DNA of 64,000 nucleotides from Photobacterium atrarenae (GTDB lineage: Bacteria > Pseudomonadota > Gammaproteobacteria > Enterobacterales > Vibrionaceae), in contig NZ_CP101508.1 in assembly GCF_024380015.1 (NCBI RefSeq), positions 2,542,902-2,606,901 of the forward strand, in the 5' to 3' direction. The translations under genes were made by a program, and so were the position numbers. A model generated the notes under the pieces. The model worked only from the letters and a program-made list of their open reading frames with translations, searched no databases and had not been told where the DNA came from. Each line of letters begins with the position of its first letter. Within the stretch, counting starts at the first letter, position 1. Positions 25,093-54,049 of this stretch are shown here, in pieces.

Positions 25093-25350
25093 ATGTATCA
25101 GAAGCAAGTTGAGATCACTGCAGAAAACGGTCTACACACACGTCCGGCAGCACAGTTCGTCAAAGAAGCCAAAGGGTTTGACGCAGACATCACTGTAACG
25201 TCCAATGGCAAAAGCGCAAGCGCTAAGAGCCTGTTCAAGCTACAAACTCTGGGCCTGGTGAAAGGCACTATGGTGACAATCTCAGCTGAAGGAGCTCAGG
25301 CACAGCAAGCTGTTGATCACCTGGTTGCCCTTATGGACGAGCTGCATTAA
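25093..25350 (+). CDS. ptsH: Phosphocarrier protein HPr
   Basis: 85 residues. It passes phosphate from enzyme I to sugar-specific EIIA domains. The active-site His15 is in [10 protein letters not shown] and Ser46 in [11 protein letters not shown]. The ribosome binding site is GGGGTGA at 25083-25089. It is the first gene of ptsHI-crr. The GGGGTGAA there is perfectly complementary to a C-rich stretch of the putative VcdR RNA at 51860-51867. Confidence 0.98.
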
Positions 25351-50116: not shown

Positions 50117-51406
50117 TTATAAGAAGATAATTTTAGCAAGAAACAGGGCCGAGATAGCCCAGACGCTAAGATTGACATCCCTTCCCTTGCCGCTCAGGAC
50201 TTTAACCGCAGCATACGTAATAAAACCTAGGCCAATACCTTCAGCAATTGAGTATGTTAACGGCATTAACAGGCAAACGACAACTACAGGTGCCGCTTCT
50301 GTTAAGTCGCGCCAGTCTACGCTCACTAAACCGGACATCATCAGGATCGCGACATAGAACAAAGCGCCCGCAGTTGCATAGGCCGGCACCATGCCAGCCA
50401 ACGGTGCAAAAAACAGCGCCAGCAGGAACATCCCCCCAACGGTGACCGCAGTCAGGCCGGTACGCCCACCCACGGCGACACCGGAGACACTCTCGACAAA
50501 CGAGGTGGTATTAGAGGTGCCCAGCACAGCACCGACTGAAGTCGCCGTACTGTCTGCCAATAGCGCACGGTTCAGACGCGGCAGTTTTCCCTCTTTATCA
50601 ATCAACTCAGCCTTAGTCGCAACACCGACCAGCGTACCTGCGGTATCGAACAGATCCACAAACAGGAAGGCAAAAACCACAGACACCAGACCGACTTCCA
50701 GCGCGCCATTGAAGTCCATCTGCATAAATGTCGGCGCAATGCTCGGTGGCATCGACACAATCCCGGCATATTGAATATCACCAAACGCAATGCCCATCAC
50801 GGTGACGGCCAGAATGGCAATCAGGACCGCAGCCTTATAACCACGGTGCACCAAACCAATCGTCAGGAAGAAACCCAGAGATGCCATCACCGCAGGAAAG
50901 CTGGTCAAATCGCCCACGTGTACCAGGGTTGCCGGATTGTCGACCACAATTCCGGAACTTTGCAGCGCAATAAAGGCCAGGAACAGCCCGATACCGGCCG
51001 AGATCCCGGTTCGCAAAGCGGTTGGGATCGCATTAATGATCCACTCCCGAACCCGGAACACACTCAGCGCAATGAAACACAAGCCTGAGAAGAAAACCGC
51101 CGCCAGAGCGACCTGCCAGGTATGGCCCATGCCCAACACAACACTGTACGTGAAGAATGCGTTGAGTCCCATGCCCGGTGCCTGCGCAACCGGATAATTG
51201 GCGACAAAGCCCATGATAAAGCAACCCACCATCGCGGCCAGGCAGGTGGCGACAAAGACCGCCCCCTGATCCATTCCCGTGGTGGCCAACATCGTCGGGT
51301 TCACAAAGATGATATAAGCCATCGTCAGGAAGGTTGTCACACCGGCAAGCACTTCGGTTCGGACATCAGTCCCGTGCTCTTTCAGTTTGAAAATTTTCTC
51401 AAGCAT
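50117..51406 (-). CDS. NCS2/AzgA-type purine (guanine/hypoxanthine or adenine) permease
   Basis: 429 residues with 12-14 hydrophobic segments. It has AGVTTFLTMAYIIFVNPTML and APGMGLNAFFTYSVV near the start, and DLFDTAGTLVGVA and GTSNTTSFVESVSGVAVGGR later, all typical of the AzgA branch (GhxP, AdeP). It imports purine bases by proton symport. The exact base cannot be told from sequence. A consensus PurR box in the leader and gpt downstream support purine salvage. Confidence 0.93.
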   Translation of the reverse strand: MLEKIFKLKEHGTDVRTEVLAGVTTFLTMAYIIFVNPTMLATTGMDQGAVFVATCLAAMVGCFIMGFVANYPVAQAPGMGLNAFFTYSVVLGMGHTWQVALAAVFFSGLCFIALSVFRVREWIINAIPTALRTGISAGIGLFLAFIALQSSGIVVDNPATLVHVGDLTSFPAVMASLGFFLTIGLVHRGYKAAVLIAILAVTVMGIAFGDIQYAGIVSMPPSIAPTFMQMDFNGALEVGLVSVVFAFLFVDLFDTAGTLVGVATKAELIDKEGKLPRLNRALLADSTATSVGAVLGTSNTTSFVESVSGVAVGGRTGLTAVTVGGMFLLALFFAPLAGMVPAYATAGALFYVAILMMSGLVSVDWRDLTEAAPVVVVCLLMPLTYSIAEGIGLGFITYAAVKVLSGKGRDVNLSVWAISALFLAKIIFL

Positions 51407-51452
51407 TGCTCTCGGTTCCTTGGAGATAATCTGCGCTGGTTAGCATGGGCAA

Positions 51453-51468
51453 TAGAAAACGTTTGCGT
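51453..51468 (-). promoter_or_regulatory. PurR operator of the purine permease
   Basis: On the minus strand ACGCAAACGTTTTCTA matches the E. coli PUR box ACGCAAACGTTTTCNT at every defined position but the last. It lies about 15-30 bases downstream of the predicted start of transcription, where PurR would block elongation or initiation. Confidence 0.92.
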
Positions 51469-51487
51469 CCTCTATTTTTGGGGGGCG

Positions 51488-51516
51488 ATTATAGTCGCCT
51501 TCATCGATAATTTCCA
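51488..51516 (-). promoter_or_regulatory. Sigma-70 promoter of the purine permease
   Basis: On the minus strand an exact TATAAT (51488-51493) has TGGAAA (51511-51516) 17 bases upstream, matching 4 of 6 for the -35. The PurR box is just downstream. Confidence 0.7.
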
Positions 51517-51773
51517 GCCAATCACGTAATTATCAGTAGCACGTCGAGCCAACTGGGCAAAACCACATCACTCAAAGCACGGAACTCAAAAAAGTAATTT
51601 TAAATCAGTAAATTAATCACAATAGAGTCGGTTCAACAATTGAACACATCGCTTTTTTAAGTCCGCCGCAAACGATTAATATGCACTAGGTTAATGGATA
51701 AAATAACGCTTAACACGCAATGTAATCGAATACAGCCTGAAAGCGGGCAATCTAACGATGTATCAGCAGCGGA

Positions 51774-51807
51774 TAAAAAAAACGCCACGCCAAATCTGGC
51801 GTGGCGT
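51774..51807 (-). terminator. Terminator of the VcdRP-like RNA
   Basis: A perfect 10-bp stem ACGCCACGCC/GGCGTGGCGT followed on the minus strand by seven or more T. No annotated-size gene precedes it on this strand, which points to a small RNA or small gene. Confidence 0.93.
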
Positions 51808-51926
51808 AAGAATGTACTGAGTCACCCTAGCGGGTGGCCCTGAATTCTCAACAGAGTGGGGGGTGAACAATGCATCACTGTTCAGGGGTTGTGCCGGCCT
51901 ACAGAAATAAGCCGACGCAATTTAAA

Positions 51927-52016
51927 TTAGTAGCCGAAAGAGCTTGGGTACTGGAAGTTACCTGTGTACACAGAGCGGTTATTCCAATAGTTTGCAATTG
52001 AGTCAAATACTTTCAT
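51927..52016 (-). CDS. vcdP: 29-residue small protein, VcdP-like
   Basis: ATG at 52016 with GGTGA 6 bases upstream. The peptide begins MKVFDSIANYWNN, continues RSVYTGNFQYP and ends SSFGY. It is aromatic-rich, with no signal peptide or membrane helix, so it should be cytoplasmic. V. cholerae VcdP is also 29 residues and raises citrate synthase (GltA) activity. The match is by size and context; I cannot confirm the residues from memory. Confidence 0.72.
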   Translation of the reverse strand: MKVFDSIANYWNNRSVYTGNFQYPSSFGY

Positions 52017-52168
52017 CTTTTATCACCATTTATATTAAGTAATTACAACACATTATTTCAGTGTTTCGCCATCATGGCATGACTTAATCTCGGTTCCTTG
52101 GAGGCGATATCTCGGGCTCATCCCAGAGCAGTTTACTGTGTCATTCGTCTTCAGCAGAAGATGGGAGA

Positions 52169-52197
52169 ACTATACCCATCAAGTAATAAACTTTCAA
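52169..52197 (-). promoter_or_regulatory. Sigma-70 promoter of the VcdRP-like RNA
   Basis: On the minus strand TTGAAA (52192-52197) and TATAGT (52169-52174) are 17 bases apart, each matching 5 of 6. The predicted start is near 52162. Confidence 0.75.
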
Positions 52198-52236
52198 GCA
52201 TTTTCTTTAACCTCGTCACAGTTTTTATTTTTTAGT

Positions 52237-52248
52237 GTGATAGATCAC
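52237..52248. promoter_or_regulatory. GTGAT-N2-ATCAC palindrome upstream of the VcdRP-like RNA
   Basis: GTGATAGATCAC is centred about 80 bases upstream of the predicted RNA start. CRP control would be expected for VcdRP, but the half-site spacing is 2 bases shorter than a standard CRP site. A single TGTGA half-site also occurs at 52216-52220. The same core appears at 19020-19031. Confidence 0.4.
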
Positions 52249-52405
52249 TTTATTTTGTAACTTTATTACAATTTAATGACGATCACGTTTTTCACCAATC
52301 ACGACTAAAGTGTAATCCTATCTTATTGATCTGCACCGCGGCCTCAACCTAATCTAAGCAATGATGGACCTAGAATAATAAACACAACAAGACAAAGGAC
52401 TGGCT

Positions 52406-54049
52406 ATGGGCATCATACAAAACCTCAGAGTGATCTCGATCAGCCGCCGGCTGTATTTGCTGGGCATCACCATCACCGTACTATCGCTCATCCCGCTCGT
52501 CATTTTTGCCTCCAATTATCAATCCAACATGCTGGAGCAAAAACGGATCAAAACCCGTCATTTGGTTGAGTCTGCCCACAGCCTGTTTCGCTTTTATTAC
52601 GAACAGGAACAACAAGGGCTGCTCAGCCGGGAGCAGGCACAGGCGCAGGCAACCCAGGCTATTGCCGCACTGCGTTATGAAGATAAGGACTATTTCTGGA
52701 TCAACGATTTAGAGCCGCGCATGGTGATGCATCCATTTAAGCCAGCCCTCAATGGCAAGCCGCTGGGCAGCTTCGCGGATCCGCACGGCAACCGACTATT
52801 TAGCGATATGGTCAAAGTAGTCAAAACGCAAGGTGCCGGCTTTGTTGACTATTATTGGGAGAAACCGGGCGCAGATATCCCGGTGGCCAAGATTTCTTAC
52901 GTCAAAGGGTTTGAACCCTGGGGCTGGCTGGTCGGCTCAGGCGTCTATATCGATGATATCCAAGCCCAGTTCATCTCAGAGGTGAAAGCGCTCGGGCTGA
53001 TACTGCTCGGCTTTCTGTCAGTGATGTTCGTGATGGCCTCGCTGATCGGCCGCTCGATCACCGCACCGTGCGAGGAAACCCTGGCAGCGATGACAGACAT
53101 TGCCGAAGGGGATGGCGACCTCACCCTACGCCTGCCGGACCATGGCAATGATGAGCTGGGACGCCTGGCCCGTGCCTACAATACCTTTGCCGATCGGATC
53201 TGTGACATGCTCAGAGATGTCGCGCCAGTTAGTGAACACATCAGCTCGACCGCCACCCAACTCAACGCAGTGTCGCGCCAAACCGTTCACAGCGCCACCG
53301 AATCCCACACCGGAGTCGACAGCGTGACGGCGGCGATGCAACAACTCCATACCAATAACCAGCAAGTGTCCGGCTCGGCCCAACAGGCAGCTGAAGCCGC
53401 ATCAATAGCCCATCAGCAAAGCGAAAACAGCATCGCGGTGGTGTCGAACTCGTCAACAGAAATGCATGCCCTGCTCCAGCTCCTCGACAATACCGACGCC
53501 AGTGCCCAAGCCCTGGCCAAAGACTCGCAAACCATCGGCTCTGTGCTCGTGGTGATCCGGGAAATTGCCGAGCAGACCAATCTTCTGGCCCTCAATGCGG
53601 CCATTGAAGCGGCCCGGGCCGGGGAGCAAGGACGCGGCTTTGCCGTGGTAGCCGATGAAGTGCGAACCCTGGCGACCCGGACCCAAAGCAGCACCAATGA
53701 AATCGAAAGCATCATTGACAGCCTACAAGCCCGGGCAACGGAAGTGAGCGAGGCACTACAGCAAACCCGGGAGCAGTCAACCAACACCGCCAGGCACTCC
53801 GAAGAGGTCGCCGACGCACTGACCGCAATTGGCCAGCAGATCCGTACCATTCGTGAGCTGAACCAGCATATAGCAGGCGCGAGCACTCAGCAGACCGAAG
53901 CCGCTGAAAATATCAATCATAACCTGCTGCAACTGGCTGAGCACAGCCAGACGACAGTTCATCAGGGCGAGCAGATTTCATCGGCCAGCGAGCAGTTACT
54001 TGCGAGCGGTCACAAACTCAATCGCCATCTGTCACATTTTAAGATTTAG
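52406..54049 (+). CDS. Methyl-accepting chemotaxis protein with a Cache-type sensor
   Basis: 547 residues. The order is: membrane segment ([20 protein letters not shown]); periplasmic single-Cache domain ([33 protein letters not shown]); second membrane segment ([19 protein letters not shown]); HAMP; and a signalling domain with the hairpin tip [20 protein letters not shown]. It senses a small molecule and signals to CheA. AAGGA precedes the ATG. The ligand is unknown; single-Cache receptors often bind organic acids. Confidence 0.94.

Follow-up and report, generated by a model that had tools for sequence, protein, structure and literature searches.

SgrS/SgrT of enteric bacteria is a sugar-stress RNA in which a small ORF lies upstream of a seed against PTS mRNAs; it works like VcdRP, and its peptide and locus differ from those of vcdRP. 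It is named in the discovery paper of VcdRP (PMC8672173, Venkat et al. 2021). According to the main text of that paper, the dual-function RNA gene vcdRP of Vibrio cholerae sits between vc2278 and vc2279 and is repressed by CRP. The RNA is 306 nt long, with the ORF at 104-193 and a conserved stretch of 10 nt at 223-232 that ends in four cytosines and is needed for target repression (PMC8672173). The terms CsrA, Shine-Dalgarno, secondary structure, Photobacterium and Aeromonas are absent from the main text of PMC8672173. VcdRP together with Photobacterium was not found in the literature searched.

The window analyzed here is the whole stretch of 64,000 nucleotides from Photobacterium atrarenae. 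Its NCS2-type permease gene is taken to be equivalent to VC2278, and vc2278 and vc2279 are presumably the permease and pepD genes. Positions 52162-51775 on the minus strand, within a gap of 1 kb, are very probably the Photobacterium ortholog of vcdRP, with the mechanism included in this reading, because locus, peptide, promoter geometry, seed, terminator and complementarity to ptsH, one validated target, agree with the published gene. The vcdRP described here belongs to a known, still young family, of which it is an ordinary representative from a new genus. The dual-function RNA known from Vibrio is extended to Photobacterium and the wider family. The features are listed in Table 1.

Table 1. 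Features of the vcdRP locus, its neighbours and its predicted target in the window
Feature	Position	Strand	Remark
ptsH Shine-Dalgarno GGGGTGAA	25083..25090	+	perfect 8-base complement of VcdR seed
ptsH, phosphocarrier HPr, predicted VcdR target	25093..25350	+	same 64-kb window as vcdRP
NCS2-type xanthine/uracil permease, neighbour	50117..51406	-	
Second leader-element copy, UCUC-CAAGGAACC-GAGA, over permease RBS	51410..51426	-	
Intrinsic terminator, stem 51807-51782 with 11 pairs, then T8	51775..51807	-	
Predicted vcdRP transcript, 388 nt	51775..52162	-	TSS predicted 7 nt past the -10
Orthologous base-pairing seed UGUUCACCCCCC of VcdR	51858..51869	-	UGUUCACCCC at 51869-51860
vcdP ORF, 29 aa plus stop, MKVFDSIANYWNNRSVYTGNFQYPSSFGY	51927..52016	-	
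vcdP Shine-Dalgarno GGTGATA, 11 to 5 nt before ATG	52021..52027	-	
Leader element CTCCAAGGAACCGAG, possible weak hairpin P3 (CUC/GAG)	52089..52103	-	
Anti-SD UAUCGCC, complementary to vcdP SD GGUGAUA	52103..52109	-	
Leader hairpin P1, GCUC-UGGGAU-GAGC, GGA in loop, stem covaries	52116..52129	-	
Sigma-70-type promoter TTGAAA-17-TATAGT, 5/6 + 5/6	52169..52197	-	sequence scan
CRP-like site TGTGACGAGGTTAAAG	52205..52220	-	23 nt upstream of -35, as in Vibrio
Cache-domain chemoreceptor gene between vcdRP and pepD	52406-54049	+	

Predicted transcription unit and comparison with V. cholerae

A preliminary description of this DNA had proposed a VcdRP-like RNA of about 390 bases in the gap, composed of a promoter, a 29-codon ORF with a ribosome binding site, C-rich stretches and a strong terminator. 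Each of these elements was recovered, the C-rich stretches being two C-runs between the stop codon and the terminator (51888-51885 and 51863-51858). It had also stated that no larger gene is present, and the minus-strand ORFs overlapping the transcript besides vcdP are indeed TTG-started and at most 35 aa long, with the exception of a 43-aa GTG ORF beginning at the terminator. The proposed identity as VcdRP is upheld by the pepD-permease-gpt locus, the peptide, the seed, the terminator and the ptsH complementarity, all of which fit.

Of the 6 promoter-like sites in the surrounding 3 kb (mean of 3.2 in shuffles), the vcdRP promoter ranks among the best two. From the predicted TSS at 52162 the RNA would be 388 nt long, near the 390 of the preliminary description, with a 5' UTR of 146 nt; it folds with z = -4.3, a value equalled by 0 of 100 shuffles. 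A TSS at a second promoter-like site (52080-52052) was set aside, because among the loci compared the window alone has a site at this place, and a start here would truncate the conserved leader. At the gathering level of Rfam, the window gives two tRNAs only and nothing at vcdRP, and five vcdRP loci give no match. Relaxation up to E = 5 returned 8 matches in 51400-52300, 7 of which are on the terminator side.

The CRP-like site has a good first half-site TGTGA and a degenerate second one, with a match at 7 of 10 positions. The preliminary description had called VcdRP CRP-controlled; in V. cholerae this control is repression, as stated in the main text of PMC8672173. TGTGA is found at most 2 nt from the offset of the CRP-like site in 52 of 54 loci, a count in which TGTGA also served the promoter-picking script as a tie-break. 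The sigma-70 promoter would produce the 388-nt RNA, probably under repression by CRP as in V. cholerae. Translation of the RNA would yield VcdP, a peptide of 29 residues expected to bind citrate synthase and stimulate it. Two genes of the citrate synthase family are present in the genome.

The preliminary description had suggested a comparison with vcdRP of V. cholerae. The letters of the V. cholerae peptide are missing from the text of the paper, and the peptide was compared via the locus L116, which, like L206, is taken for V. cholerae or a sister species. Counted from the stop codon, L116 has TGTTCACCCC at 223-232 and the end of the T-run at 306, and it matches the published geometry (ORF 104-193, seed 223-232, 306 nt) with a TSS estimate off by 1 nt. 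Features common to the window and L116 are the flanking genes (pepD at one end, permease-gpt at the other), TGTGA placed 23 nt upstream of the -35, the peptide and the seed; in both of them TGTTCACCCC is preceded by a GAACA...TGTTC repeat. The geometry of L123 and L124, taken for Aliivibrio, predicts a shorter RNA of about 310 nt.

Judged by the main-text description of VcdRP in PMC8672173, the likeness comprises the gene position, the 29-aa peptide ending in SFGY, the promoter with TGTGA of a CRP-type site upstream, the seed UGUUCACCCC, the terminator and the ptsH complementarity. The locus differs from the V. cholerae gene in its longer 5' UTR (146 nt versus 103), its longer RNA (388 nt versus 306) and its longer 3' part, as well as in an extra C-run, a CRP half-site only and the chemoreceptor gene before pepD.

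Distribution in the family and predicted VcdR targets

DNA similarity to 51774-52200 was found in 34 of 60 relatives. A search of the family with the peptide, another suggestion of the preliminary description, gave a profile match in 246 of 329 genomes and none in 83. When 20 of these 83 were searched with a wider profile, 1 turned positive; part of the family therefore seems to be without a recognizable copy. Across 394 genomes drawn from the order, the wider profile gave 35 matching genomes; five of these lie outside the family, and one of the five has an internal stop. Among the 22 distinct VcdP peptides of the genus, 12 of 29 positions are invariant. The reading of family f1 as Vibrionaceae and the labels Vibrio, Aliivibrio and Enterovibrio on loci are inferred assignments.

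Second vcdP copies occur in two genomes of the genus, at L132 (G029:C12, taken for P. lipolyticum) and G109:C472; the L132 copy lies outside the pepD-gpt locus and is without the C4 seed. L131, L133, L305 and L306 form a divergent clade of the genus, with the VcdP type NVYESTAKFWNNKGVFSGAFSYPRSFGY, other leader letters and no P1 of the usual form. Matches of a VcdP pattern in Shewanella marina (L083) and other records outside the family do not pass a stricter scan and were treated as chance.

Among 69 family loci, pepD lies beside the gene in 65, the permease gene in 66 and gpt in 58, and several of the absences are loci whose DNA ends too early. A match to the chemoreceptor gene is present in 15 of the 69, some being too short to judge. 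In E. coli, pepD and gpt are also adjacent; their gap and its three forward frames, inspected by eye, contain neither the leader element nor the peptide.

The preliminary description had assigned PTS pairing to the C-rich 3' part. The orthologous seed here is the second C-run; the first was rejected as the seed, because the Vibrio stretch aligns with the second one. In the 33 loci of the main clade, UGUUYACCCC is conserved in 28 and CCCC in 32, though much of the 3' DNA varies. CCCC precedes the terminator in 67 of 69 Vibrionaceae loci (main clade 32/33, clade II 4/4, other Vibrionaceae 31/32), with four repeats of the same place dropped and one second copy (0/1) set aside. The peptide and the C-rich segment, on whose conservation among Vibrionaceae the preliminary description had staked its proposal, are both conserved.

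The ptsH Shine-Dalgarno GGGGUGAA can pair perfectly over 8 bases with the seed segment UUCACCCC, compared with a match of 5 contiguous bases in L116 and L206. Eight contiguous complementary bases were reached by 4 of 424 background initiation regions, a set limited to ORFs of at least 100 aa with starts chosen by rule of thumb, and none of the 424 contains GGGGTGAA. GGGGT precedes ptsH in 30 of 30 other genomes, as GGGGTGAA in 23 and as GGGGTA in 7, and GGGG is found at 0 of 9 ptsO-like paralogs. By duplex energy, with PTS gene names assigned by NCBIfam, the ranks among the 424 regions were 16 for nagE, 18 for a ptsG paralog, 33 for ptsH, 176 for a second ptsG-like gene, 255 for treB, 304 for the best ptsG match and 371 for a malX-like gene. 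In this ranking no complementarity to the seed was seen at the best ptsG match, the second ptsG-like gene or treB. The seed is CAUUCCC in P. phosphoreum (L090) and CAUCCCC in P. iliopiscarium (L081), P. piscicola (L089) and a MAG (L096), with ptsH still GGGGUGAA in all of them. Set against the energy ranks and these seed changes without a change at ptsH, the ptsH complement and its conservation make the predicted ptsHI branch of VcdR targeting well supported here, and other PTS targets partly supported. The C-run of the 3' part would pair with the RBSs of sugar-PTS genes, most clearly ptsHI, and repress them, with VcdR acting as the full RNA or as an RNase E fragment together with Hfq.

The conserved leader and its copy at the permease gene

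In the leader alignments, two blocks stand out above most of the remainder: P1 and AUCGCCUCCANGGAACYGAG. The P1 block consists of GCUC, a loop holding GGA, GAGC and then YCCG. For both leader alignment sets, RNAalifold predicted P1 together with a helix joining AUCGCC to the vcdP Shine-Dalgarno GGUGAU.

In 28 aligned leaders, that is 28 of the 33 main-clade leaders with near-duplicates left out, one pair of P1 is C-G in 16 and U-A in 12. A search with free 3' letters (GYUY and a GGA loop before CCG; four repeat loci dropped) matched 96 of 101 loci with 382 of 384 cells paired, two of the four pairs occurring as C-G, U-A and U-G; no match was obtained in L131, L133, L294, L305 and L306. An earlier pairing search found no hairpin in 6 of 105 loci. 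In a hand-picked alignment 108 of 108 cells were paired (slid controls 0 to 58%), a value that is partly circular since its rows were preselected by the pairing search and at least two distinct hairpins were omitted.

The helix with the Shine-Dalgarno is paired in 97.6% of cells of the 28 leaders, with one double change from C-G to U-A in L073, which is also seen in its near relative L099. The divergent loci L131 and L306 retain a short helix made of different letters, and among 44 leaders the pairing is absent in L133, L305, L294 and L307. Folded one sequence at a time, the 44 leaders form the helix with a mean probability of 0.28. In the window the value is 0.04, and the minimum-energy fold pairs UCGCC with GGCGA instead. 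UCGCC:GGCGA was rejected as a conserved switch partner, as by eye it is not retained in relatives. Weighing the covariation and conservation against the low folding probability, the AUCGCC-SD helix is likely to be real, perhaps as one of the conformations of a switch. In 5 of the 33 main-clade loci (L073, L087, L095, L099 and L108), the leader contains the leader element a second time.

Another copy covers the permease RBS. The 5.4-Mb genome contains CTCCNNGGAACCGAG at exactly two sites, the vcdRP leader and the permease RBS, which lie on the same strand and 678 nt apart. With at most 2 mismatches allowed, 33 of 33 main-clade loci carry the permease copy, which can form UCUC...GAGA, and in L092 (Enterovibrio norvegicus), L127 and L128 its stem is CUUUC...GAAAG, a compensatory change; it is absent in the Vibrio-type loci L114-L122. 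The whole genome holds the 15-mer CTCCAAGGAACCGAG at these two sites only.

The conserved leader is an unexpected feature of vcdRP and deserves a study of its own. It points to a further layer of VcdP control, of which the main text of PMC8672173, as searched, makes no mention. The structured leader would control vcdP translation through AUCGCC, which can pair with the vcdP Shine-Dalgarno and adjoins the GGA-loop hairpins. The balance would depend on a trans-acting factor, perhaps CsrA, which would also target the mRNA of the adjacent permease gene.

Relatives outside the family and alternative explanations

Of the 394 genomes from the order, 62 have the leader core GCCTCCNNGGAACYGAG, always as a single copy (f1 29, f2 11, f11 2, f25 20), and the backwards control of the pattern gave 2 matches in all. 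Its first N is A in 62 of 62, and its second N is A in 40, T in 13, C in 8 and G in 1. Each of the 31 loci of f2, f11 and f25 that were read downstream holds an ORF of 27-32 aa, of the type MSGSNSTYWFAQSLYTQGFSYPNPYASRR in f25, MQGIYCDLFWNRRG...YPREFGY in f11 and MKNSVPATPVFGDLYNTKFTYPRHFGY in f2. The gene is flanked by pepD and gpt, without the permease gene, in 2 of 2 f11 and 20 of 20 f25 loci, and none of the five neighbours was found at 9 f2 loci. The C4 run is missing in 30 of these 31 loci: CCCC occurs in 0 of 2 f11 loci, which have GUUCAUCCC instead, in 1 of 20 f25 loci, inside a GC hairpin, and in 0 of 9 f2 loci, 3 of which are without a terminator and had 150 nt scanned instead. From these counts and the spread of leader and ORF, leader and peptide appear to be what is widely shared, and the C4 seed is a mark of Vibrionaceae. 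A leader-controlled peptide gene may have preceded the sRNA part. The f2 loci are the least certain relatives, placed here by the leader and by a resemblance of the peptide ends judged by eye.

Loci with the leader and a related peptide without the seed, as in f2 and f25 and in the second copy of P. lipolyticum (L132), are what would be expected if vcdRP were a leader-peptide mRNA only, with the C-rich 3' part as an untranslated tail and no VcdR activity in this species. This explanation is very improbable, given that the seed is maintained in the main clade amid variable 3' DNA and is complementary to ptsH of the same genome. Still further from likely, to the point of being negligible, is a functionless small ORF lying by chance between a promoter-like site and a terminator: short ORFs are common, with 98 of at least 25 aa in 8 kb, but the peptide, leader, seed and gene order are conserved across the family. 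Under the preferred identification as a dual-function RNA, the natural series of loci with the seed, loci without it and second copies lets the functions of peptide and RNA be separated.

As for the factor acting on the leader, the finer consensus of CsrA sites is ANGGA or CAGGAUG, and the free N of ANGGA in the leader block fits it. GGA in the loops of stem-loops is a known mark of CsrA sites according to PMC7858070. As in CsrA-bound leaders and Csr sRNAs, GGA stands in covarying hairpin loops here, one of them over the permease Shine-Dalgarno. A hairpin with UCAGGAYGA is present in the leaders of 18 of 20 f25 loci, and a strict count of ANGGA on a 4-pair stem is enriched in f25 (22 versus 2.5 expected), f2 (9 versus 1.8), f11 (2 versus 0.2) and other Vibrionaceae (31 versus 6.0). 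Unlike CsrA-bound leaders, the main clade gives a strict count of 5 versus 5.9 expected, and the leader of the window gives 0. VC2278 does not appear in the main text of a CsrA target paper. Regulation of the leader by a CsrA-type protein is the best guess, an unproven one, and a ligand or another protein may act in its place. A riboswitch-like binder of a ligand, perhaps a purine, controlling vcdP and the permease gene would compete with the regulatory step of the leader only. The near-invariant loop letters GGAACYGAG, the single core copy per genome, the competing helices around AUCGCC and the sharing of the element with a purine-type permease all speak for it; its hairpins are, however, tiny and tandem or reordered in relatives, a pattern more in keeping with a protein site than with a folded pocket, and no Rfam family is matched. 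On balance such a riboswitch is rather unlikely.

Tentatively, with a chance somewhat below even, the core of vcdRP can be regarded as a leader-controlled micropeptide older than the family and shared by up to four families, in which GGA-loop hairpins and an anti-SD would control a citrate synthase peptide, with the same hairpin over the permease RBS and the PTS seed added later. If this is true, CsrA would join carbon storage control to CRP control at vcdRP.

The f2 loci L330-L338 combine the leader block with an ORF of the MKNSVPATPVFGDLYNTKFTYPRHFGY type, a short 3' part, no seed and other neighbours. The f25 loci L308-L327 encode peptide relatives, and their leaders contain several candidate hairpins with GGA, arranged in a different order.
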